A stretch of DNA of 64,000 nucleotides from Polytrichum commune (Eukaryota > Streptophyta > Polytrichopsida > Polytrichales > Polytrichaceae). Shown in pieces: positions 545 through 59,417 of the stretch. Each line of letters opens with the position of its first letter. Position 1 is the first letter of the stretch. Below the pieces are notes generated by a model. It worked only from the letters and a program-made list of their open reading frames with translations. It made no database searches and was not told the origin of the DNA. Position numbers and translations under genes: made by a program. The DNA lies in contig OX485808.1 of the NCBI GenBank assembly GCA_950295325.1, forward strand, positions 18,374,527-18,438,526, given 5' to 3'.

Positions 545-830
545 TTAGTAATGTTACGGTGTTCCACATTAAAGGGAAATACTTATCCACCGTCTCCCCT
601 CTTTCTTGCCTCAAGACAACCTTGGTAATTGTCCCCAGGTGTGTTATGTTTTTGTGACGCCCATCATTAGGTCTTAGATTGTCGTGAGTTTCAAGAAAGC
701 CAACCATTCCCGATGCACCTCAACCTTCTACACACCAACTCGCACATTCATTTAGGGTTCCGAGGGACTCACCCAAGAATCCGGGCCCAAGAATCTCTTG
801 GTTGCATTGTGCACCGAAGTTCCGCAACTA

Positions 831-1054
831 TGATGGGGGAGAACCGGTGGTTAGTTACAAATGAACCGGTTGAGATTGAGAAACAACCGGTCGAAATTCA
901 AGACCACAAGAAAATTACCAATCATTTAAGAGGAATCAATAGAATATTCCTCCAATTTATCAAAGGAAAACAAGAGGATGTCAACAACATGTAACCGGTT
1001 GGACTTGCAAACACTAGGATCTCAACCGATCATGCCCAAAAATCTCCCCCATCA
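831..1054 (+). mobile_element. H1: short GGGGAGA-ended MITE-like repeat
   Basis: The ends are a perfect 12-bp inverted repeat, TGATGGGGGAGA against TCTCCCCCATCA. The body is rich in AACCGG and CCGGTT. Copies or parts recur at 10365-10621, 29719-29937 (minus), 36945-37176 and 37670-38296 (minus, interrupted), with a shred near 46183-46225. Length is close to 220 bp. The superfamily is unclear because the direct repeat outside the ends is not clean. The 93-codon frame at 713-994 runs across its edge and is not supported. Confidence 0.7.
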
Positions 1055-1328
1055 TTGTTCCACAAGCCTCCCATTGTTCCCCATCCACCTTCAAAACACT
1101 GTAAAAGCTACACAAAATATGATATTTAGTGTTTGATACACTAAATATCATCAACCCTATGAAAGTAAGTAACATCAAATGTACACTCAAACACTAAATA
1201 TCAACTATGGTGATATGTGGAAGTTACATGTTTGCATTTAGTGTTAGTAAGGATATAATAAGGGAGGTGGCAGTAGGGAAGGTAGCCACATTTATGTCAC
1301 ACACTAATTGTCAAAGATTTGAAAATTA

Positions 1329-1863
1329 GGGCCACTTTGCACCTAGAGGCCGGGCCAATTCGTTGTGTAAGAGGCTTGAAATCCTCACTTATGATTGGCC
1401 AAAAGGATGAAATCGGCCCCAACCCCTTTACACCTAGAGGCGGGGCCGATTTGGTGGTATGAAATTTTTAATCAAAAAATGCATGGTATGACACGGCCCG
1501 AGCTCGTTGAATTGGGTGCACCCAAAATGGAGGGCCAATTCTTGGCCTCGGGGCCAATGTCACATTTCAATAGAAAAAACTTATTTTAAATAAAATATAA
1601 ATTTTTAGTAAACTATATCCATTGGATTATATGGAAATATGAACGGCTCTATGCTAAATTATGCTAGATCCGTTGGATTATGCTAGATTTATTGGATCGA
1701 CCCTGCTTCTTGACCCTAAGGCCTTTACATATGGAAAAATTGGCCCCCATTATAATCTTATTATAATGTGTAGTTGAGGCTGGCCTCCAACCTAAAAGGG
1801 GTTGAAATTTCATGCCATCGGCCTCAAGGGGAATTGGCCCGGCCTCTAGGTGTAAAGCGGCCC
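1329..1863 (+). mobile_element. B1: TTA-flanked Harbinger-type MITE nested in D1
   Basis: The left end reads GGGCCACTTTGCACCTAGAG and continues CCGGGCCAATTC; the right end is its complement with few changes, giving TIRs of about 33 bp. TTA is present at 1326-1328 and 1864-1866. A second, diverged copy of the terminal motif lies inside the left half near 1428-1452, so the left end looks internally duplicated. 535 bp with no coding capacity. The first ten bases match family A, so both families could use the same transposase. Confidence 0.85.
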
Positions 1864-1866
1864 TTA

Positions 1867-2458
1867 GGGCCACTTCACACATGAGCCAAGAGTCGTGACC
1901 TTGTAATCGTGAGGACCCTTGACTCTCATCCAAAAGCCGTACCATGGGTGTTGGGAAAGCCCTTTTATGTAGTCTTGGGCCCTCAAGCATAGTGTGAAGT
2001 GAGAATGAACCATGTTGCGGGACCATTGCATATTTTGTTGGCGGAAAAGAGGGGAGGATTTGGTTTAATATAACATGTCTCCAAGTTTATCAATTTAAGA
2101 TAATTACTTGGTGGTGTTTGTATGTCTTGGGAATTTGTCCTGGAAACTACCATGCAGTCTGTCCTGAAATCTGTCATGTTGGAAAAAAATATTAAAAAAA
2201 ATCATGGTCTCCTAGAATTTGCGTCAAGCCCACCTCTTGGAGGTGGGTCTGACGCAAATTCCGGTAGACCATGCACCCTTATCCACAACTAGCCATGTAG
2301 GACTCCATGTAGACTTTTCATCCACGAACTTTTCTTTGGGCCTTTAGGCCTTCACCTCCTAGTGTGAAGTGAACTTGGACGGTCTCCGCCTTTTCGACCA
2401 ATGAGAGCTCTTACATTGCCATGGTCAAGGGCCTTCAGCCTTGTGTGTGAAGCGGCCC
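1867..2458 (-). mobile_element. A1: family A Harbinger-type MITE, abutting B1
   Basis: The TIRs resemble GGGCCACTTCACACACGAG. TTA on the left (1864-1866) is also the right duplication of B1, and TTA follows on the right (2459-2461). It is inverted relative to the copies at 9471, 54841 and 62667. The interior holds a strong hairpin (2204-2270) absent from most other copies. Length 592 bp with no transposase. Confidence 0.85.
2204..2270. repeat. Hairpin inside A1
   Basis: Two arms read GAATTTGCGTC and GACGCAAATTC, enclosing a second inverted pair GCCCACCTC / GAGGTGGG. The pairing extends outward through GGTCT/AGACC with three mismatches. A similarly placed but unrelated-sequence hairpin occurs in A8 at 32480-32540. 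Confidence 0.8.
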
Positions 2459-2529
2459 TTAGTGTTGAGCACGGTAGGGTGGTAACAACACTAAATATAA
2501 TCAAACACTCAATATCATACTTTGTGTAG

Positions 2530-3020
2530 TGAGGTCCACAATCATCGTGTTGTCTCAAACGAAGATCAAAATCCTCATGAACGAACACGGATGAAGCCGG
2601 AGCACACCCATGTCAGGAATTGCCAGTCACAAGGGGTGAGGAACTACAATCCATATAGAAGAAGATAGGTAGGTCATCATCCGCTTATTATATCCCTGCT
2701 GCAAATCCAACATACTCATCCACGTCAGCATTTCCCACCACTCACGGCCTGCCACCTGTCAGGTAATAGGGTCAATCTTGGGTCAGTAAGAAAGCTGCAT
2801 CAGAATCCGTGTGTCTTATTAAGTAGGCGAAGTACGAATTAACTCCTGGGGTGTAGAGACCCATGTTTTTTTTGTCTGGGCAGGCAGGCACCTTTGCCCG
2901 ACAGTGTATGTACGTTCTAATCTTTCAAAGTGTATGGCATGTGGGTAATCTTTGGTGTATGGTGCTTCACTTGGAACCTCTTTAGCATAACTTCAACCAA
3001 TGTTTATAAGCGTTCACTAG
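2530..3020. other. No gene seen
   Basis: Unique AT-leaning sequence. I see no TIR, tandem structure or convincing reading frame. It could be host spacer or a repeat with no second copy in the window. Confidence 0.5.
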
Positions 3021-3790
3021 CCTAAGTGGAGAGCACTTCCAACAACTTGCACATGTTTTCCCTATTCACATATTAAACATTTCGCTCATAGGCTCCAATT
3101 TTCGTTCATGAGTTAACCAGTTACGTCCCAAAAATGGTGTGAGTGGGTGGATGTTTCACTGTTTTTACAACTTGTCATCCACTCTCCTATCATTGGTTTT
3201 GTAATCCATAATATATGTATGCAATTTATATGTAGGCTGCAAGGTCTAGTGCAGAATACTTCCTTGGAAGCTTATAAGGACAACTTCTAAGGAGTCATCA
3301 TACATAATTGGTTGCTCATCCAAGAAGAAAGCACTTTTAGAAAACCCAAAGTGTTTCCTATCCACACATAGAACATCTCATCCATAAGCTCCAATTATGT
3401 CCATGAGCATCCCAACTTATGCTCCATAAATTGTTGGAGTACGTGGATGTCTCCATGATGTCACAACTCGTCATCCAGTCTCATGTCCCGATTAAGTAGT
3501 TCATACATAGTTTAGGTTCACTTTGAGTCCTTCTTTACTAGATTTGGTAGAGTTTGGCTAATATTTGCAAGATTCTTAACCTAAACTTGAAGACATTGAA
3601 TTGGCCATTTTTCCAAGTAGAAAAACTCCCCACAACTCCATTGTAATTTTCTATCCACACATAGAATATTTTATCCATATACAAACCTCTGAATCATGTC
3701 CAAGTACAAACCATGTTATGTCCAATCAACCACTTTAGTAGGTGGATGCTATTATGTATTGTCATCCATTTTTCTCTCACTAGCTATGTA
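3020..3790. repeat. Degenerate ~300-bp tandem repeat, about 2.5 units
   Basis: Three successive blocks share the same order of motifs: TATCCACACATAGAA (or a close form), a CATCCATAAGCTCCAATT-like stretch, a GTCCATGAG-like stretch, TGGAGTACGTGGATG, then an AACTCGTCATCC-like end. Anchor points fall near 3060, 3355 and 3650, a period of about 295-300 bp. Divergence is high, so the expansion is old. No open frame spans the units. Confidence 0.65.
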
Positions 3791-5560
3791 GTACTTATAT
3801 GAAGTGGGTCCACTATGAATGCAATGAGCAAGGTCATGATGATTTTATTTGCCTTTCATTCAAAAGCCTTAGTTGACTTGCATTTGGACTTTTGTGTGAA
3901 TGAAGTTTTGAACACCTAAATGCACTTATACGTTTTAGGGTGAAAATAGGTAAACTAAGTGACTTGCGATTAGGCAATTGTTGAAGGCGACCAACTCATG
4001 TGTAGTGGAATTAAACCGTATAGGTGTGAGTTGTTTGTATTTTATTAAATTGATATTTTGTGGCCAACCTTTTCTCACACTTAGGTAGATTATAAGAATT
4101 TTATAGTGGATGCTATGACATGGCCAACATTGGCAATTTTTGAGAGGGGAAATTTTGATGACTTTCCTAACAAATTCATAATTTTTGCAAAGAAAATGTA
4201 GGGAATCTTATCATTATATTAATACCAATCCACTAACACAAAAAATAGCAATTCACTTGTAGGTGAGTTATTTCAAATGTTTGCAGTTCCATGACCCCTA
4301 AATGTTGGCTCCAATGAGTCCTAAACCACAACATAATGGATGGACATTATAGTTACCTACTAAATAATTGGACTTGGTTTTAGTTAAGCCAATGTGGCAA
4401 AATTCGGGACCATCACATTTGACAATGGACATGGCTCGAGTGGTTTAAGTGACATTAATAAACTATATGGGCCATAGGCTCCAACAATGCATTTTGGTGG
4501 GCATCAGGAGTTTTGGCCTACATGACTAGGTGGAACCCAACGTGAGCCCAATCAAAGGAGGCCCTTGTTAGCTGGTAATTCTACACCTTGATCCATTATG
4601 GGCTTGGTTGGTGCATGTACCTCGTTGGCACCTGTAATTCAACTACATTGGGTTGTTCATATGCTTTCCACTTATGGTCCTATCCAATCTATGCCTTTTG
4701 GTTCCGAGGTTTTCCCACCTCATGGTTCAAGTGTTTCTAGCTCCATGATGTTATCATCTAAGACTCCTAGTTGGCATCTTGTAGGTGTAGCCACCACACC
4801 GTGGTCGAGTCAGTTGTAGCCTTCTTGGATTTGGGGTGTCTCATCCTTCATACTTCTAGGTTTATAATCATTTCTATCTAAATGCTATAATCTCTTGATT
4901 CATGTGACCTCATACTCACCACGAGGTACTTTTCTTGTGAGACCAATCTTACCCGTCCTCTAGGCCGTAACATGATGAGGTATTTCCTAGTAACCATGTC
5001 ACTCAATCTTCTTCGAGCATACAAGAAATCACCACACATGTACTCGCCTATCTCAACTAACACCCCTTATCCTCATTGCTACTTCCTTATATCCTAAACT
5101 CAAAAATTCTTCAATCAACCCTAATCTTTAGTTGTGTAACCCTAAATTCCAAAAGTGATGGGTGTCCTCTCTTGGTTGTTAGTGCGTCAACCAACTATAG
5201 CATTGCACCTTAAGTCCGGATGTTGAATCGATCATGTATTTTGCCCAATTATATCATACCTAACATCCTCCCGTCTTTTGAAGAAGAGGGGCATGGTAGG
5301 ACCTCCTCATTTCCTCGCATTATCTCTATTCATGTTGCAACTAAGTCCTCAAGAACTCACCTTCATGATTTTTATTTTCTTTGTTTCTTGTTGGCTTCTA
5401 GTAAGGTTGCCATTATTGTGGTTAGGTGCAATGAGCATAAAGGTGGGGTTTAGGACTGAGAGTTTAGGGTTTGGTGCATAATGTCGTGGATTCATTTTTG
5501 TGGTCGTGGTTGTGGCTACGTTTGGTGATCAACCTAAAGAAACTAGAGGCCTTTGTAGGC
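3791..5560. other. No gene seen
   Basis: Several short frames (4598-4819 plus, 4878-5063 minus, 5220-5481 plus) show no domain, biased composition or paralogue in the window. I consider the stretch unannotated. Confidence 0.45.
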
Positions 5561-5562
5561 CA

Positions 5563-5757
5563 ATAAGGTGACGGTGATTAAGGTGTTGGCTTCTTAAGGC
5601 TTGCCTCATTAAGTTGTTGCTCACTAATATTTGGTTCATATGGTTAGGGGGTTGGCTTGTCTCATTAAGGTGTTAGCCTCATTACAATGTTGCCTCGTCC
5701 CAAGAAGGTGTTGGGTCACCTCATTAAGGTGTGAACTCATTAAGGTTTGAAGGATGC
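5563..5757 (+). repeat. Short-period minisatellite, CTCATTAAGGTGTTG type
   Basis: The motif CTCATTAAGGTGTTGGC and variants recur irregularly about seven times, with spacers of 15-35 bp. It is too degraded to give an exact unit. Confidence 0.6.
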
Positions 5758-6017
5758 CATCATTAAAGGCTTGGGCAATTGCAGTTGCAAACCCAACTAA
5801 TCCAACTCCTCACCCCCTTGGTCCATCCAAACAACCATGTATAGAAAAAAGGAGTTGGCCCATCACTGATTTAGTGCATTTCAATGCCTTGGTTGCCATT
5901 TATAGCATTATTTTGAGATGTATAGCAGAGGTAGGTCAAGGGAGACACAATTGGTCCCAATTTATTATGGAAAAATGTATGATTTGAAGTGTATTTGTAC
6001 ACAATTGATGTTTTCCC

Positions 6018-6018
<1 letters not shown>

Positions 6019-6046
<28 letters not shown>
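6019..6046. repeat. (TG)14 microsatellite
   Basis: Uninterrupted dinucleotide repeat, visible directly. It makes the N-terminus of the small frame at 6018-6323 a run of Cys-Val and argues against that frame being real. Confidence 0.95.
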
Positions 6047-6050
<4 letters not shown>

Positions 6051-6177
6051 AATTTTAATTATTTTGTTATAAGCAAAGCCGCCTTAAACAAGGTAATGTA
6101 TTTGGGTCTCGATGAATTAAAAATGTTTCATAAAGAATGTTATCGTTTTTGTTTGACACCCCCCCAAATACCCTACT

Positions 6178-6888
6178 TCACACACAACTTGGATCCAATG
6201 TGCATATTGTTGAATGCGTTGATCGCATTGTTGTCAAGCTTAGGAGGGTGTCTTGACATCCAAGGCGCCTCATTAAGTATGTGTCGTGCTCACCAAAACC
6301 AAGGTAGTTCAAGAGGTATTTAAAGAATTCCTCGTTGTGAGTGGACATGTTGGGCCAATCGGCATTCAAATCACAGTGTCTAAGAGTGGTGATGACATGG
6401 TATAACCTCAAATGTCTACGGTCGATGTAAATGAAGAGACCTTGGTGGTCGACAATTAAAGTGTTACTAATAGAATGCATATTCTTTATGCCATTAAACC
6501 ACCAAGCACGGTTAGGATCCTTGTATAGTCTTCTTATCTTAATTAACATTCCATCTATGACACCTATACATGCATAAAAATTTGGGAGCATTTCAACTAG
6601 CTTTTTGTACTCATAGCTATCATATCACTCGATCTCATGTAGCAAAGCTTTATTGATGCATGATGGAATGAAGATTGCATCACGATTATAACAATTATTT
6701 GGTCCAATTGCAAAAGAAATAGCTCTACATTGTGTTATTATTGTGCTTAAAAACAACAATAAAGGATCCTTTGTTGAAGTGGTATTTTGCAAGGACAACG
6801 ATCTCGCACATGTAAATGCACCTTTTATATGAGCACGTGCATCTATGGTGGGAACAATATCTATATGTAGCTCATCAAATCTAGCAAC
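6178..6888 (-). pseudogene. Broken PIF/Harbinger (HARBI1/DDE_4) transposase
   Basis: The 137-codon open segment (6178-6591) contains the hallmarks of the DDE_4 nuclease of Harbinger transposases: CIGVIDG (first catalytic Asp), then WWFNGIKNMHSISNT, VDHQGLFIYID, a FFKYLLN block and YLMRRLG. The block that normally carries the second Asp (family form LLGDPGY) reads LLNYLGF here, so that residue is lost. The same frame continues upstream past a TGA at 6625-6627, giving segments such as FAIGPNNCYNRDAIF and KALLHEIE, until another stop at 6889-6891. It is therefore an inactivated gene. Harbinger enzymes normally move TTA-targeting elements, which matches families A, B and C, but its own TIRs were not found and no direct link is shown. 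Confidence 0.85.
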
Positions 6889-6891
6889 TTA

Positions 6892-7960
6892 GTAATTGGT
6901 AAGAATTCTAAACCAGGCAGAGTTAACATGCATGTTATCCAAGAAAATCTTTGATTGGCTTCGTAGGGTTTACATAAGATTGGCCACCCTCTTTTGTTTC
7001 ATTTACATTGAGAAATTTCATTGGAGTTTGTTGCATCCAATGCCATTCGCAAAAACACCAATGTAATTTCATCCCAACCCACATTGCCGTCACCATTGTG
7101 TTTGCTTAAAGAATCATACGACGTTGGATTTGGTAAGGGGTTTTCTATACTACTCTTTGGTTAAAAACTCATGTCTATTAAATGTATATAACAAAGATGT
7201 CGGGCTCTAATAATCAATATAGCTTAATATGAAGTTGTTATCGTAATGAATATAGAAGTGGACAACACAAACAAACAAAAGAGCTCTAGGAAAAACTGGT
7301 CTAAGTGTATTGTCATCACAAATTACCGATCTTACAAGCAAGGGAAGCTCGTCTAACAACTCGGGATTAAGGTTTATCAATGTGAAAATGAGTTGCATGA
7401 ATTGGGAACTTGATGCCATCAGTTTGGTGAGGTGTGACCACATAATTTGCTAACATGATGATTAGTGTCAGTCTAAGCACATAATTTGAGTGGGTGGTGC
7501 AACCCCCTTCTACATAAAGAATCCCCTAGGACTCCCATTACTTGTTTATTTCATAAATATCTACATAAAAGACTAGTTAATGAGAAGAAGATGCTTCATT
7601 ACAAATATGTTACTTTTGCCCAAACTTTGTGATATCTTGGATATATTAACTACACAAAACCAAAACTTGTTTGAAACTTGGGGTCGTATATGCCCCAAGC
7701 GCATTTGGGGGTTAAGGGTTAATAAGATGGTTGATTCAATGTGAAGGATTGTATGCTTTTTTGAACTTTGTGCACTCAAGTGAAAGCTTTCCATGAGAAC
7801 ATGGTGAATATGACTTTATCATTTAAATATTCGAGGACTTTATTTTCCACCTCACAATTCAATTTGATGAAGTCCTATGTGTCATACAAAATTCATGCAC
7901 ATAATTGTTTTTCTTCTTGACTTTGGGTTTCTATGATCGTTGTGGTAGTGACACTCCAAA
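6892..7960. other. Possible further transposon debris; no clear gene
   Basis: This lies upstream of the broken transposase on the minus strand and could hold its N-terminal part, but I could not trace a frame with confidence. The small minus frames at 7207-7443 and 7573-7794 have no recognisable domain. Confidence 0.35.
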
Positions 7961-7964
7961 CAAA

Positions 7965-8180
7965 GGAATCCTAGGCAATTGTCATGCATCACTAGAAACT
8001 TGTCTTGCGTGATTGGAAATCTACAAATCTACCATAATGATAGACTTGCATTATTCTTTCATCGACGCATGATAATTGTCTAGAACTCATATATTGGTAG
8101 TGTGAAGATAATGACAAATATTGTACAAAGCCATCTAATTCAACAATCTAAGTGTAGGAACATTGTTTCCATATGAGAAT
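7965..8180 (+). repeat. L1: dispersed repeat of unknown class
   Basis: The block starting GGCAATTGTCATGCATCACT and continuing through GCATGATAATTGTCTAGAACTCATA reappears, diverged, at 33540-33690 (GGCAATTATCATGCATCACT ... GCACGACAATCTCTTCGGACT) in the same order. No TIRs identified. Confidence 0.6.
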
Positions 8181-8525
8181 GTATTGATCTCAACCATCAC
8201 CATGACAACACGAGAAAAAATCCTCCTAGTAATTACATTTTTTTGTCAAGCCAAACACGGAACTACGTTGGTAGACTATATGGATGTCAATTTATAAACC
8301 TTCAAAATCTAAGAGGCTTGTTATAGGCCTCAAGTGGATGTGTTTAGTTGCTTGTATTTATTTTTTAAGTTGAAAAGCTCTAAAGCGATTCAACATGAAA
8401 TTAGCTTAAATTGTGAATTGCATTTTCCCAATTGGAGCATGCATTTATGTACATAAAACTTTGGTAATTTTAAGCTAATAAAGCATACCCAAAATCAGAT
8501 TTATTACCATAAATATATCACCACC

Positions 8526-9090
8526 GTGTTCCATCCAATCGTTTCTTGCTTCCTCCATGTAGCAGGCCATGTTAAATATAGAGTCAATATGACAAACCAA
8601 ATAAACATCAAAATCAATACTTGTTGGGAGCCCTCTATAAATCCATACATACGCCTCCCTCCACTAAGAACCAACATTTATATCATTCTTTCTGTAAACC
8701 GATGCCTCTAACAGTTAATCATTTGACGAAACACTCAAATAGAGTGCGGAGATTCACATAAAGACTTCGTCCTCAAATGACAACTAACAACTCGCAGTAC
8801 CCCTAGTCACTTTCATAGAATAATCACCATTTGTAGAGAAACCCAACATCCTTTATCGATGAAGATCTTCACACCATTGTTACATACGATTGTGTTTTTG
8901 GCTTCCTTTACGTAGTAGGTTGTCCTAAACATCATTCCAACCTCAAAATCCAAGTAAACGTAGACTCCAATACTTGTTGGGGCTCTATAAACTATTGCAT
9001 AGGCCATAGACCATTATACCGTTGTGAATCATTCGAGACACTCAAGAAGAGTGTGAAATACTCACATGAGGACTTGGTAGTTGAACAACA
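8526..9090 (-). repeat. Tandem duplication with a conserved minus-strand reading
   Basis: Two units about 340-360 bp apart (8526-8780 and 8880-9090) match block by block, for example TACTTGTTGGGAGCCCTCTATAAA against TACTTGTTGGGGCTCTATAAA, and an AAACACTCAAATAGAGTG-like block. On the minus strand both read as related peptide. One unit gives RGLPTSIDFDVYL ... YMEEARN, the other RAPTSIGVYVYLDF ... YYVKEAKN ... GVKIFIDKGCWVS. Protein-level similarity in the same frame suggests a decayed coding repeat. I do not recognise the family; only the 64-codon segment at 8813-9007 stays open with an ATG. Confidence 0.6.
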
Positions 9091-9470
9091 AACACCTGAT
9101 AAGCCACGGTGCACGTGATCACCTTCCCGAACACCAAAACAAAACAAAAAATCTCGATGTGGTAGAGAAGGCTAAGGTAGATACTTTGGGTGGTGGTTTA
9201 CAATACTAGGGTCGTTGATGCAATGGCTGTGAGCAATATGTGATGAAGGGGAGCTACAATTAGGTTAGCTTGTTGCTTGACACTCTTCCACATTATAGGA
9301 AGAGATATGCTCCTTTTGGGTCACAAGAAACAGCTTTCCACATGTTCTTGGGGTAGATAAAAATGAGTGCTTATGGAGTACTACTTCTTTGTGTGTTCGG
9401 TCTCGCATAGCCCCTACCTTTGCAATAGCATCTCACCCGGTTTTGATGAATGGGGAGAACTGACCGCGAA

Positions 9471-19357: not shown

Positions 19358-19735
19358 CACTAAATATGATATTTAGTGTCACCAAGTCTAGTTGTCTTGC
19401 TCCATACTAATTGCAAACCTCGGTATAGTGTCACCAACACTAAATGTTAACCCAACATTATATGTCATTCCTTGTTAAAATAAAATTGGGGATTGTAGAT
19501 TTATAGTGTTGCAATTACTATCACTAACCAAATTATTTTTCATCCAATTTTCAATCATCCATGGTGATATTTCATCACAAGTTGCAGACAAGGGAAGGCG
19601 GGGTTCTGGCGTATGGATGAATTCATCATCCATCATCCATGAGAGTATTTGTTCACGTATTCATAAGAAGCGGCATCCGAAAAGTCACCATAGTGACATC
19701 AAATACCATACGACATTAAATATCACATTTAGTGT
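19358..19735 (+). mobile_element. E1: TA-type MITE
   Basis: Starts CACTAAATATGATATTTAG and ends with the diverged complement CATTTAGTG followed by TA (19736-19737); the left TA has become TG. It aligns over its length with E2 (21905-22259), sharing CCAACACTAAAT, TGTCATTCCTTGTTAAAA, TTTCATCACAAGTTGC and ACCATACGACA. 378 bp, no coding. Confidence 0.85.
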
Positions 19736-28405: not shown

Positions 28406-28450
28406 GAAAGAAAGAGAAACTCCGGTCTACAAGGGGCCGGCGTGAAATAA
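28406..28450 (-). mobile_element. F4: 45-bp LINE 3'-tail insertion
   Basis: An exact 11-bp duplication GTGGAGTGAAA (28395-28405 and 28451-28461) brackets 45 bp. Read on the minus strand, this is the last part of family F: TTATTTCACG, a CCGG-stem hairpin, GGAGTT and a (CTTT)n-like tail. It is an extreme 5' truncation of the same LINE seen at 28992, 58281 and 58887. Confidence 0.85.
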
Positions 28451-28628
28451 GTGGAGTGAAATAAGTTGAAATGAACTTCAAGGCATTGTGCTTCAAGTTA
28501 TTAGACTTGTTCGAGACATCTCCAGACTTTGTTAGCTTTGCAACATCTCGTGCACTACGCCTAGAGATATCTCCAAAGATATCTCCATAAATGGCCTTCC
28601 CATATCCACTAACACTCCCCTAGTCTTC

Positions 28629-28991: not shown

Positions 28992-29226
28992 CTCCACTCC
29001 ACCCACTAATAATGCACTAGAGAATGGATGGCCACACTCATATTAATAATACCTAAAAACTAACCATTATGGTCCTTGTTACTGGTGACTGGTGACTATA
29101 GTGTCTACTCTCGAAAGGGAGGAGTAGATCTGTACTTCCATACCTTTGTCCTGTGGGCATCGGATTGGGGGTGGATCGAACAAACACTTAATTCACGTCG
29201 GTCTCCTCCGGAGACTGAAGTTTTTC
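28992..29226 (+). mobile_element. F1: 5'-truncated LINE 3' end, 235 bp
   Basis: A perfect 12-bp duplication TTCACCTAAACA (28980-28991 and 29227-29238) marks the ends. The last 145 bp match F2 and F3: a stem around GTCTACTCTCGAAAGGGAGG, the conserved CATACCTTTGTC and GTGGATCGAACAAACACTTA stretches, hairpin 29199-29217 (GGTCTCC/GGAGAC), then GAAGTTTTTC as a short tail. No ORF. Confidence 0.88.
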
Positions 29227-36156: not shown

Positions 36157-36417
36157 GGGCTGGCCACTTCACACACGAGACTGAGAGCCCGAGACCTCGA
36201 ACCATCTCCGACCTCTCGACCAATCACATATAGTATGTATGGGAGTGGGCCCTCAAGCTCTAGTGTTATGCAGTGCAATAATGTCTTAGGGCCACTTCAC
36301 ACACGAGACTGAGAGCCCGAGACCTCGAACCGTCTCCGACCTCTCGACCAATCACATATAGTATGTATGGGAGCGGGCCCTCAAGCTCTAGTGTTATGCA
36401 GTGCAATAATGTCTTAG
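36157..36417. repeat. 128-bp tandem duplication of a family A end
   Basis: GGCCACTTCACACACGAGAC begins at 36162, 36290 and 36418, exactly 128 bp apart. The first two units are almost identical (differences such as ACCATCTCC/ACCGTCTCC and GGGAGTGGG/GGGAGCGGG). Each unit carries the A left end, a CTCTCGACCAATCACATATA stretch and GGGCCCTCAAGCTCTAGTG. The third start leads into the normal A3 body. Confidence 0.9.
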
Positions 36418-36916
36418 GGCCACTTCACACACGAGACTGAGAGCCCGTGACGATTACATTTCAAGCACTCTCGTTGGTGGACAAGGCGGAGCCCGTCCAA
36501 GTTCGCTTCCCACTACCCTTGATGAGGGACCGGTGGAGTAGGTGAGTGCAAGATGATGGATGTAAAGTTGACATGGATTCCTACATGGTATTGAATGGAA
36601 CACGGTTCACGGTCACTTGGACAATTTTCAAAAATCACCTCTTGGAGGTAGGCCGAACACAAAACTGGGTGACCATGGCATTCCGAACGCTCGTAACCGT
36701 TGGTTTATTCTATTTTATCATGGGCGAGTGCCCGCGTGAATAGAAATCCATTGAAATAGCATCTGGTTGAGGGCCCGGGCACATATGACTTCACGCCACG
36801 CTTGAGGGTATGTGACCACACTACATGGTTTGGGAGGTGTGTTGGGACGGCCTTTCGGACACTTTCTTTTTGGGCTCTCACAATCTCATGGTCACGGCTC
36901 GTGTGTGAAGTGGCCC
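36417..36916 (+). mobile_element. A3: family A Harbinger-type MITE
   Basis: Left GGGCCACTTCACACACGAG after TTA; right CTCGTGTGTGAAGTGGCCC then TTC. The body matches A2 and A6 (GACAAGGCGGAGCCCGTCC, ATGGATGTAAAGTTGAC). The left end is preceded by two extra copies of the terminal unit. Confidence 0.85.
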
Positions 36917-57952: not shown

Positions 57953-58280
57953 TCTAGAGAAATGAAGTCATTATGTTAAATACATTCAATATTCTATTTA
58001 GTATCCAATATTCAATATTTAGAGTACTTTTATATGATTGTGCTAACTTTTCTAATGACACTTTTATGAACAAGTTTGCAAATATTGTCATCTCAATGTA
58101 CTTTTGGTTTAACCAATTTTACTTTGGTAAATTCTGCATCCTCACATTTATGTAATGAAATATTATCATATTTCATCAAAAATGGATGAGAAATCACATA
58201 GTAAGTGATAATAATTGTAACACTATAAATCTATAATTCCCAAATTTTGATACAAGAAATGACAAATAATGTTAGCTCTA

Positions 58281-58876
58281 GATAATAATAATAATAACTT
58301 CGGTCTCCGAAGGAGACCGACGTGATTTAAGTGTCTGTTCGATCCACCTCCAATCCCATGCCCACATGACAAAGGTATGGAGGAAAAGATCTACTCCCCC
58401 CTTTCGAGAGTAGACACTTTGAACACAAGAGACCAGTAGCACGGAACCACGACTAACATTACACCCATTGCCCCTTACCCGTAACTTTTAAGTTTTGAGT
58501 TATGGGGGATCTAGAGTGTGGGGAAGCGGCTGGTGGTTTTCTATTCTCCTTTTGTGGAGGAGGATAGACATGGCATATTGTATTGTGATGGTGTTAATAT
58601 TTTTAAATGTATTTTTGATGGTGAGCATAGGCATTTTGAAATTAGTCTCGAGTGATTTCATAGATGGGATGTGAGCAGTAGCTCTGGCACCAGCAGTGAT
58701 GACAAGAAGTGGTTCGATTTTCCATCCTCTAGAAGCAATACTAGCAATAAGTGGTCTGTATTTGTTATTTTTTGCCTCAATTGCTTCTGGGGAGAATCTG
58801 TCATTGTAGTATGTGAATTCAATAAATTGTATGGTGAGGTTAGGGTCAATGTCAACGGGAGGGTTGTTTTGATATG
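58281..58876 (-). mobile_element. F2: 5'-truncated LINE with ORF end and 3' tail
   Basis: Bracketed by identical 10-bp GTTAGCTCTA copies (58271-58280, 58877-58886). On the minus strand it runs from a coding segment (58500-58873) through a 3' UTR with a stem (GTCTACTCTCGAAAGGGGGG, 58390-58415) and a terminal hairpin GGTCTCC/GGAGACC (58301-58319), to GAAGTT and a (TTA)n tail. 596 bp. Confidence 0.9.
58500..58873 (-). pseudogene. LINE ORF C-terminal domain, 5' truncated
   Basis: About 124 codons stay open to a TAA at 58500-58502 without any start codon, because the insertion is truncated. Recognisable pieces in order: NNPPVDIDPNLTIQFIEF, TYYNDRFSPEAIEAKNNKY, GWKIEPLLVITAGARATAH, IPSMKSLETNFKMP, TIQYAMSILLHKRRIEN. 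It follows the pattern of C-terminal domains downstream of the reverse transcriptase in some non-LTR retrotransposons. Full coding continuity suggests a recent insertion. The 65- and 74-codon ATG frames at 58658-58895 are in the wrong frames. Confidence 0.8.
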
Positions 58877-58886
58877 GTTAGCTCTA

Positions 58887-59319
58887 GATAGATAAATAGA
58901 TATGAACTCCGGCCTTCTTTCGAGGCCGGCGTGAATAAAGTGTTTGTTCGTCCTGACAATGAGCTAGTGCCCACATGATAAAGGGCCATTGGTATAAGAC
59001 TACTCTCCCCTTTCGGGAATAGACACTTTAGTAACCATGGATAAGTACTAGTAACATTAGTAGCATTGATTGGTTAGATATCATGTGGGTATAAATTGGT
59101 ATTTGTTTTTGTTGGTGGTCACCAAGTCATGGTTCCAAGGTTGGTTGGAGCATTTGTGTTACAATTATACGGTCCAAGTTCGATCTCCGTTGACTCCGTT
59201 TGAGCGTTATTGTGATATACATGACTTGGTACTGCTAGTGACTTTATCATAGGCAGGAAAGTTTGTTACATACTAGTCGGCTCTGTCCCCTCTTCCTGAG
59301 ACAAGTGTTTACTTTGATT
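58887..59319 (-). mobile_element. F3: second LINE-tail copy at the same target
   Basis: Flanked by GTTAGCTCTA at 58877-58886 and 59320-59329. The 3' part matches F1 and F2: stem at 58999-59023, CATGTGGGCA, GAACAAACACTTTA, hairpin CCGGCCT/AGGCCGG (58909-58929), GGAGTTCATA and a (CTAT)n tail. The 5' 200 bp are different and include a tRNA-like stretch on the opposite strand. Confidence 0.85.
59125..59190 (+). ncRNA. tRNA-like segment within F3
   Basis: TGGTTCCAAGGTTGG followed after about 30 nt by CAAGTTCGATCTCC looks like an A box/B box pair with a D-stem GTTCC/GGAGC. The acceptor stem does not close. Orientation is opposite to F3, so it is either chance or a separate SINE piece. Confidence 0.35.
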
Positions 59320-59417
59320 GTTAGCTCTACATTTAGTGTCGGTGACGTTACAAGGGCGGTTTAGAATTAGTATCGAGGAAGGCAAATGGAATTGGTTACA
59401 CTAACATATTTAGTGTA

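Follow-up and report, generated by a model that had tools for sequence, protein, structure and literature searches.

Copies of family F and their insertion sites

We analysed a window of 64,000 nucleotides (G000:C6:18374527-18438526) from a genome of 408 Mb in 64 contigs, in which TTTAGGG repeats start at the first base of contig C1 and the plastid genes rbcL and accD are located on contig C8. These features identify the host as a plant, and its rbcL points to a land plant that looks similar to bryophytes. Within the window, three full copies of family F (F1, F2 and F3) and a truncated one of approximately 40 nt (F4) were identified, which scored 146, 145, 139 and 20 bits, respectively, with a covariance model. 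The copies and their flanks are as follows.

28992..29226, plus strand: F1, a 5'-truncated LINE 3' end, delimited by eye, with near-identical 3' ends elsewhere in the genome
28980-28991 and 29227-29238: 12-bp target-site duplication of F1, TTCACCTAAACA, identified by eye
29096..29225, plus strand: structured 3' domain of F1 (P1-P2-P3 junction, linker and P4), from the covariance model
58281..58876, minus strand: F2, a LINE fragment with coding end, 3' UTR, structure and (TTA)n tail
58500-58868, minus strand: open 122-codon end of the predicted C-terminal endonuclease coding region in F2
58271-58280 and 58877-58886: flanks of F2, TAGAGCTAAC
58293..58422, minus strand: structured 3' domain of F2 (145 bits; z -4.9)
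58887..59319, minus strand: F3, a LINE 3' UTR fragment with structure and ATCT-like tail
58877-58886 and 59320-59329: flanks of F3, TAGAGCTAAC
58902..59031, minus strand: structured 3' domain of F3 (139 bits; z -2.7)
28415..28453, minus strand: F4, a copy of about 40 nt with P4 and tail only (covariance-model entry 28415-28481)

The first-pass annotation had proposed a candidate recognition structure of a LINE, and the LINE origin is borne out by the attached protein: a LINE is found upstream of many F tails, and F2 in the window carries the open 122-codon end of its C-terminus. It had also placed the hairpins of F1 at 28999-29217, of which the start at 28999 falls in less conserved 3' sequence, and the inserted fragment rather covers approximately 28992-29226. 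In all four copies, the domain (of which F4 has P4 only) is followed by the tail and then by the target repeat (TTCACCTAAACA in F1, TAGAGCTAAC in F2 and F3, TTTCACTCCAC in F4), as seen by eye for F1 and F4. The remnant F4, which is flanked on both sides by TTTCACTCCAC (a duplication identified by eye), looks as if it sits inside a Copia-type LTR, also judged by eye.

F3 and F2 are arranged in tandem at one target (window 58271-59329), with TAGAGCTAAC present three times. When joined, the outer flanks of the pair align at 77% identity with 7 gaps to window positions 19358-19551, and since the alignment runs across the junction, the latter segment has the appearance of an unoccupied site. Elsewhere in the window, a 128-bp tandem repeat (36162-36451; 2.3 copies at 98%) adjoins a dispersed repeat family (36413-36912), with related stretches near 2.4, 9.5, 51.2, 55 and 62.8 kb. 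Searches of the genome with F1, F2 and F3 yielded 690, 450 and 1332 rough first-look candidates, respectively, of which 40 were scored in each search.

Architecture and covariation of the 3' domain

The last approximately 130 nt of the F-type elements consist of a long-range stem, P1, around the hairpins P2 and P3, followed by a linker, the hairpin P4 and a microsatellite tail. In the numbering of the 130-nt model, P1 pairs positions 5-9 with 89-93, P2 13-17 with 22-26, P3 29-55 with 61-86, and P4 100-109 with 117-126. The corresponding segments in F1 are the following.

29100-29104 with 29184-29188, plus strand: P1, long-range stem, with pairing in 325/335 cells of 67 tails
29108-29112 with 29117-29121, plus strand: P2, GAAA-loop hairpin, with pairing in 331/334 cells of 67 tails
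29124..29181, plus strand: P3, long and variable stem, GUCCUGUGGGC at its apex
29189..29194, plus strand: linker TAATTC between P1 and P4
29195..29221, plus strand: P4, terminal hairpin, the last stem of the first-pass annotation

An RNAalifold consensus of 30 F-type tails contained 36 pairs, 11 of which were changed on both sides. The P4 loop is UCCG in F1 and UUCG in F2, the P2 loop is GNRA-like in F and in a related group, G, and the linker motif ATTCA(C) is common to F, G and a third group, H. P1, with its arms about 80 nt apart, and P4 form perfect inverted repeats in many copies; a C.A mismatch breaks P4 in 30 of the 67 tails. No match to Rfam 15 was obtained at the gathering score within the window, and a search of nine loci to an E-value of 1 returned mir-653 alone, a match at chance level (E 0.62) that scored 21.8 bits where the gathering score is 77. 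A tRNA origin of the tail or the upstream UTR was also considered and rejected, as ARAGORN (bacterial code) found no tRNA in eight loci or in the window.

Two conserved hairpins with compensatory changes had previously been proposed at this end of the family. The hairpins are real, but they are part of a larger fold whose P1 and P3 had gone unmentioned. The terminal one, P4, pairs although its sequence varies, with GGTCTCC/GGAGACT in F1 (including a G.U pair), GGTCTCC/GGAGACC in F2, GGCCT/AGGCC in F3 and a CCGG-closed stem in F4, all as first described. The other one, an upstream stem with the arms TCTACTC/GAGTAGA, competes with the 5-bp hairpin P2. It was said to persist in F1 to F3, and it does so with 7, 7 and 6 of 7 pairs, respectively, but across the relatives it pairs less well than P2 (357/468 cells as compared to 331/334 over 67 distinct tails). 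Single changes on the tree kept the upstream stem in 6 cases and broke it in 7; for P2, the corresponding numbers were 17 and 4. With no double changes and poorer pairing than P2, the upstream stem was rejected as a part of the conserved fold, and of the compensatory changes claimed for the two hairpins only those in P4, four double changes, were recovered.

The 130-nt tails of F1, F2 and F3 fold with z-scores of -2.9, -4.9 and -2.7, and only 2, 0 and 2 of 200 shuffled sequences, respectively, fold as well; folding of these three copies is thus above chance. In the minimum-energy folds of the 67 tails, P1 was present in 56, P2 in 49, P3 in 59, P4 in 62 and the upstream stem in 13. The single-sequence folds of F1 and F2 use the upstream stem wholly or mostly; that of F1 is without P1, while those of F2 and of the copies L046 and L013 keep P1 and P3, with P2 mostly replaced by upstream-stem pairing. 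The upstream stem may therefore still form in F1- and F2-like RNAs.

For the structure-level analysis, an alignment (A1) was made of 30 tails out of 38 non-redundant ones (from 72 in total); eight were dropped by hand, and seven of these deviate from 130 nt in length. A per-pair test similar to R-scape (a G-test with APC and a branch-wise substitution null of 200 null alignments) found none of 8001 pairs significant at E<0.05. Since the joint change of columns on one deep branch also yields high scores under the per-pair null, we then turned to structure-level and event counts. The structure used for shuffling differs from that of RNAalifold by two pairs, one more in P1 and one fewer in P4. 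In this structure, 96.2% of the cells were paired as compared to 87.7% in shuffled alignments (0/500), 139 cells were changed on both sides as compared to 57.6 (0/500), and the covariation score was 0.371 as compared to 0.205 (0/500) and to at most 0.153 for slid partners. The number of pairs with changes on both sides was only modestly elevated (12 as compared to 9.4; 19 of 500 shuffles reach 12), and distinct pair types were fewer than in the shuffles (30 as compared to 33.5; 500/500).

For the event counts, changes were placed by parsimony on a FastTree tree of 71 rows (67 of them distinct). In total, 15 compensatory double changes between standard pairs were identified in 12 pairs, while single changes kept a pair in 62 cases, broke it in 45 and restored it in 19. 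Random relocation of the substitutions within each branch gave a mean of 2.3 double changes (maximum 9), and re-pairing of the real columns a mean of 1.5 (maximum 6); 15 was reached in neither null (0/1000 each). Internal branches alone contributed 6 double changes, against a null mean of 0.46 and a maximum of 4 in 2000. Six of the nine terminal double changes were located in a single divergent tail, L097, which folds in the same way (z -6.6). With the eight dropped rows restored, 15 double changes were again obtained (0/500 and 0/1000). The covariation that had been proposed for a deep alignment is strong in the structure-level and tree-based counts and absent from the per-pair test. We conclude that the fold is strongly supported and that single pairs are perhaps under-powered, with few independent lineages.

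P3 accounts for 10 of the 15 double changes, P4 for 4, P1 for 1 and P2 for none. As they fall mostly in P3 and P4, the support for P1 and P2 comes from pair retention and from the contrast between F and the groups G and H. Among the kept pairs, G.U cells (193) outnumber A.C cells (59, of which 40 are in P4), which favors a structure in the sense RNA. The F-type ends share one feature with stringent-type LINEs, namely a 3' RNA structure that is conserved and shows compensatory changes.

The association of the structure with the LINE was examined on 40 F-type 3' ends, which were hand-picked from 150 protein matches for their spread in identity and position without viewing the tail. L094 and L095, which are among the 40, had surfaced earlier in a tail search. 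The structure was present on all 40 ends (85-138 bits), and 39 carried a tandem tail of at least 8 nt, 36 of which were rotations of TCTA. The tails observed are short repeats and not poly(A). Their units tend to differ between the subfamilies, with TTC or TC in F1, TTA in F2, and TCTA/ATCT in F3 and most of the sampled F-type LINEs; TTTA-like units were observed in group G and TTTTC-like units in group H.

An automated scan for target-site duplications was performed on 30 loci, of which 14 extend beyond the fetched 5' end. A target-site repeat of at least 9 bp was identified behind the tail in 9 of the other 16 (L002, L008, L010, L014, L017, L024, L027, L029 and L030), as compared to control maxima of 6-8. 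Among the remaining scanned loci, L001 has an off-place 10-mer, with the likely real repeat seen by eye, and six have none longer than 7 bp. Two copies, L051 and L053, consist of the 130-nt domain, the tail and a few extra bases, and are located between the repeats GCACTACATT and TAGAAATGATCT (by eye). Like F4, they look like truncated copies. They represent 2 of the 20 F2-type copies fetched, and their start lies only a few bases from P1, which could reflect a halt of the reverse transcriptase where the junction domain ends.

The LINE protein and the related groups G and H

Copy L139 has an ORF of 2854 amino acids (bases 777-9338), and open frames of up to 2919 amino acids were found among the copies listed. 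The ORF of L139 encodes an AP-type endonuclease with a score close to the line (Pfam Exo_endo_phos, 25.5 bits; cut-off 24.5), and in the same ORF a reverse transcriptase (RVT_1, 3.7e-27) and an RNase H (RNase_H, 1.5e-14). In a second copy, L031, Exo_endo_phos_2 was identified at 27.7 bits (cut-off 27.4), a similarly narrow margin, with Exo_endo_phos below its cut-off (20.8; cut-off 24.5). Among proteins of solved structure in the PDB, the reverse transcriptase of L139 is closest to that of R2 (7.5e-33). R2 is a LINE specific to rDNA.

A domain of the PCIF1 type (PF12237; 2.8e-12, above the cut-off) was identified between the reverse transcriptase and RNase H domains, at amino acids 2106-2234 of L139, and was also found in L031. 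PCIF1 is the methyltransferase that produces m6Am next to the cap. This region has weak sequence matches to PCIF1 in the PDB (E 0.018 and 0.071), and as its fold was predicted poorly (pLDDT 40.6), the assignment is based on Pfam and these matches.

The C-terminus has no Pfam match in L139 or L078 and no significant sequence match in the PDB. Its fold was predicted with a mean pLDDT of 61.6; when averaged over blocks of ten residues, values of 68-89 were reached in 14 of the final 16 blocks. The five best Foldseek hits were R2 proteins (E 4.4e-6 to 1.7e-4; query TM 0.36-0.42), and with VIA the seven best were R2 chains (Z 10.9-12.8, as compared to 8.1 for the next). The C-terminus is thus predicted, by its fold, to be an R2-like restriction-like endonuclease. 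With an AP-type endonuclease, a reverse transcriptase, a PCIF1-like domain, an RNase H and the predicted C-terminal R2-like endonuclease, the elements of family F are placed among the Dualen/RandI-type LINEs by their layout with two endonucleases. This layout is best known from green algae.

Ahead of the endonuclease, L139 and L031 contain the motifs GDIETNPGP and GDIEPNPGP, respectively, which we take to be 2A-like and which suggest, from the sequence, that the N-terminal part may be separated co-translationally. Protein searches of the genome gave 3702 and 4138 rough first-look candidates, of which 150 were scored in each search. The copies number at least in the hundreds and are spread over many contigs, and long open frames are present.

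Group G was reached through a chance match in L014. Its LINE protein is related to that of F, with identities of 34 and 42% for two pieces of L137 and of 36% for L138. P1 is GGAGCCC/GGGCTCC in G as compared to AGTGTC/GACACT in F, with the ATTCA linker motif kept. All four G sequences that were folded form P1 and P2, and a covariance model built on F only (R1) matched 15 of 16 G loci with 19.7-41.1 bits, missing L132. The RNAalifold consensus of G differs and is without P1 and P2. With the structure named above, 93.2% of the cells are paired, a value reached by 116 of 500 shuffles, and for covariation the score is no different from the mean of the shuffles (240/500). The G copies are probably old and would have decayed after insertion.

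Group H is represented by 20 ends from protein matches, with P3 and P4 sequences of its own and a P1 like that of G. An alignment (A3) was made of 18 of these ends, leaving out L157, which is G-like, and L158, which is interrupted. RNAalifold drew P1 to P4 with the same topology for H without a given structure, and 12 of the 34 pairs were changed on both sides. The fraction of cells paired was 97.8% as compared to 91.1% in shuffled alignments, and the score was 0.274 as compared to 0.149 (0/500). The F model R1 is weak on H, where its best score is 24 bits and E<0.01 was reached for 9 of the 20 loci.

Proposed recognition of the 3' end

Several known systems offer points of comparison. Dualen has been named as the LINE group with both types of endonuclease, and an RNase H has been reported for Dualen/RandI (PMC4640811, in excerpt). 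Tails made of short repeats, either (ATT)n or (CTATTT)n, were described for all 8 RandI families listed from green algae, and SINEs of algae were paired with RandI 3' ends (PMC3747384, in excerpt). The elements described here resemble the green-algal ones in their AP-type and restriction-like endonucleases, RNase H and short-repeat tails, but their host is a land plant, as seen from the plastid genes. They also carry the PCIF1-like domain between the reverse transcriptase and RNase H.

In the stringent LINEs of the L2 clade (UnaL2, ZfL2-1 and ZfL2-2), the LINE protein binds a 3' stem-loop that matters for retrotransposition, and R2Bm and R2Dm need their own 3' UTR (PMC4176376, in excerpt). The former resemble family F in having a 3' structure at the tail, but consist of one stem-loop in another LINE group, as opposed to a junction domain of about 130 nt with an additional hairpin. 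The likeness to R2 is at the protein level, in the closest reverse transcriptase in the PDB and in the fold of the C-terminus, whereas the copies here are located on many contigs. A 3' hairpin with compensatory changes has also been described by Ohshima for plant L1 and a monocot SINE (PMC3747384, in excerpt), but this is a single hairpin in the L1 clade with a related stretch of about 50 nt. A literature survey of mostly open-access scope, and in that sense a weak negative, found no description of a 3' RNA structure for Dualen/RandI, nor of the group in land plants. The class of mechanism is known; what looks new is the fold, together with the clade and the host.

We consider family F to be the 3' end of a Dualen/RandI-type LINE with a conserved fold that is most likely bound by the protein of the element for priming. 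By analogy with the stringent LINEs, the protein would bind the fold on its own RNA, and binding would place the repeat tail in the active site of the reverse transcriptase at the nicked target. Target-primed reverse transcription would then start in the tail, and slippage would give rise to variable repeats. From the terminal position of the domain and the minimal copies, the 130-nt domain would be the first thing that the reverse transcriptase meets. That the fold is needed for priming, and which helix would be read, are inferences. P3 and P4 change while they pair, P1 is nearly fixed within each group, and the bases of the junction and linker stay, which suggests that the shape and a few bases are read.

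An alternative explanation, which we regard as unlikely, is that the fold serves another step in the life of the RNA, such as shielding a 3' end without poly(A) against nucleases, export from the nucleus or processing of the 3' end, and that the reverse transcriptase needs the tail only. A protecting structure is plausible for RNAs that end in short repeats and not in poly(A), and a compact junction with a hairpin at the very 3' end fits this role. The argument against it is one of analogy, namely the binding of the 3' stem-loop by the protein in stringent LINEs (PMC4176376, in excerpt). The data presented here do not separate it from recognition for priming, and L051 and L053, composed of domain and tail, fit both.

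It is very improbable that there is no selected structure and that the covariation reflects the shared ancestry of a few subfamilies. The negative per-pair test, the lack of covariation in G alone and the lack of double changes in P2 are in line with such an explanation, but the tree-aware counts in F and the unsupervised fold of H agree in topology. That the inverted repeats act at the DNA level, as cruciforms or by being read as DNA at integration, is hardly credible despite the perfect inverted repeats of P1 and P4 in many copies, since the excess of G.U over A.C cells fits a sense RNA and not duplex DNA, and the arms of P1 are far apart.

Returning to recognition by the element's own protein, we tentatively suggest, without quite reaching the point of favoring it, a broader reading of the three groups. 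The P1-P2-P3 junction, the ATTCA(C) linker and P4 may define a class of structured RNA, not previously described, which would serve the dual-endonuclease LINEs of a land plant as a shared recognition signal. The topology is kept while the helix sequences change, in P1 from F to G/H and in P3 and P4 within the groups as well, so that the protein would read the shape and a few junction bases and not the sequence. In each lineage, the protein may have diverged in concert with the tail and the repeat unit that belong to it.

The way in which LINE enzymes select the RNA of their own element has been worked out in few clades. The elements described here show that LINEs with a layout best known from green algae are present in the genome of a land plant, and the covariance model offers a means of finding such 3' ends where the proteins have decayed. 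If the fold is the signal of the LINEs with two endonucleases, it would provide a compact RNA, with many natural variants of unlike sequence, for testing what the reverse transcriptase reads.
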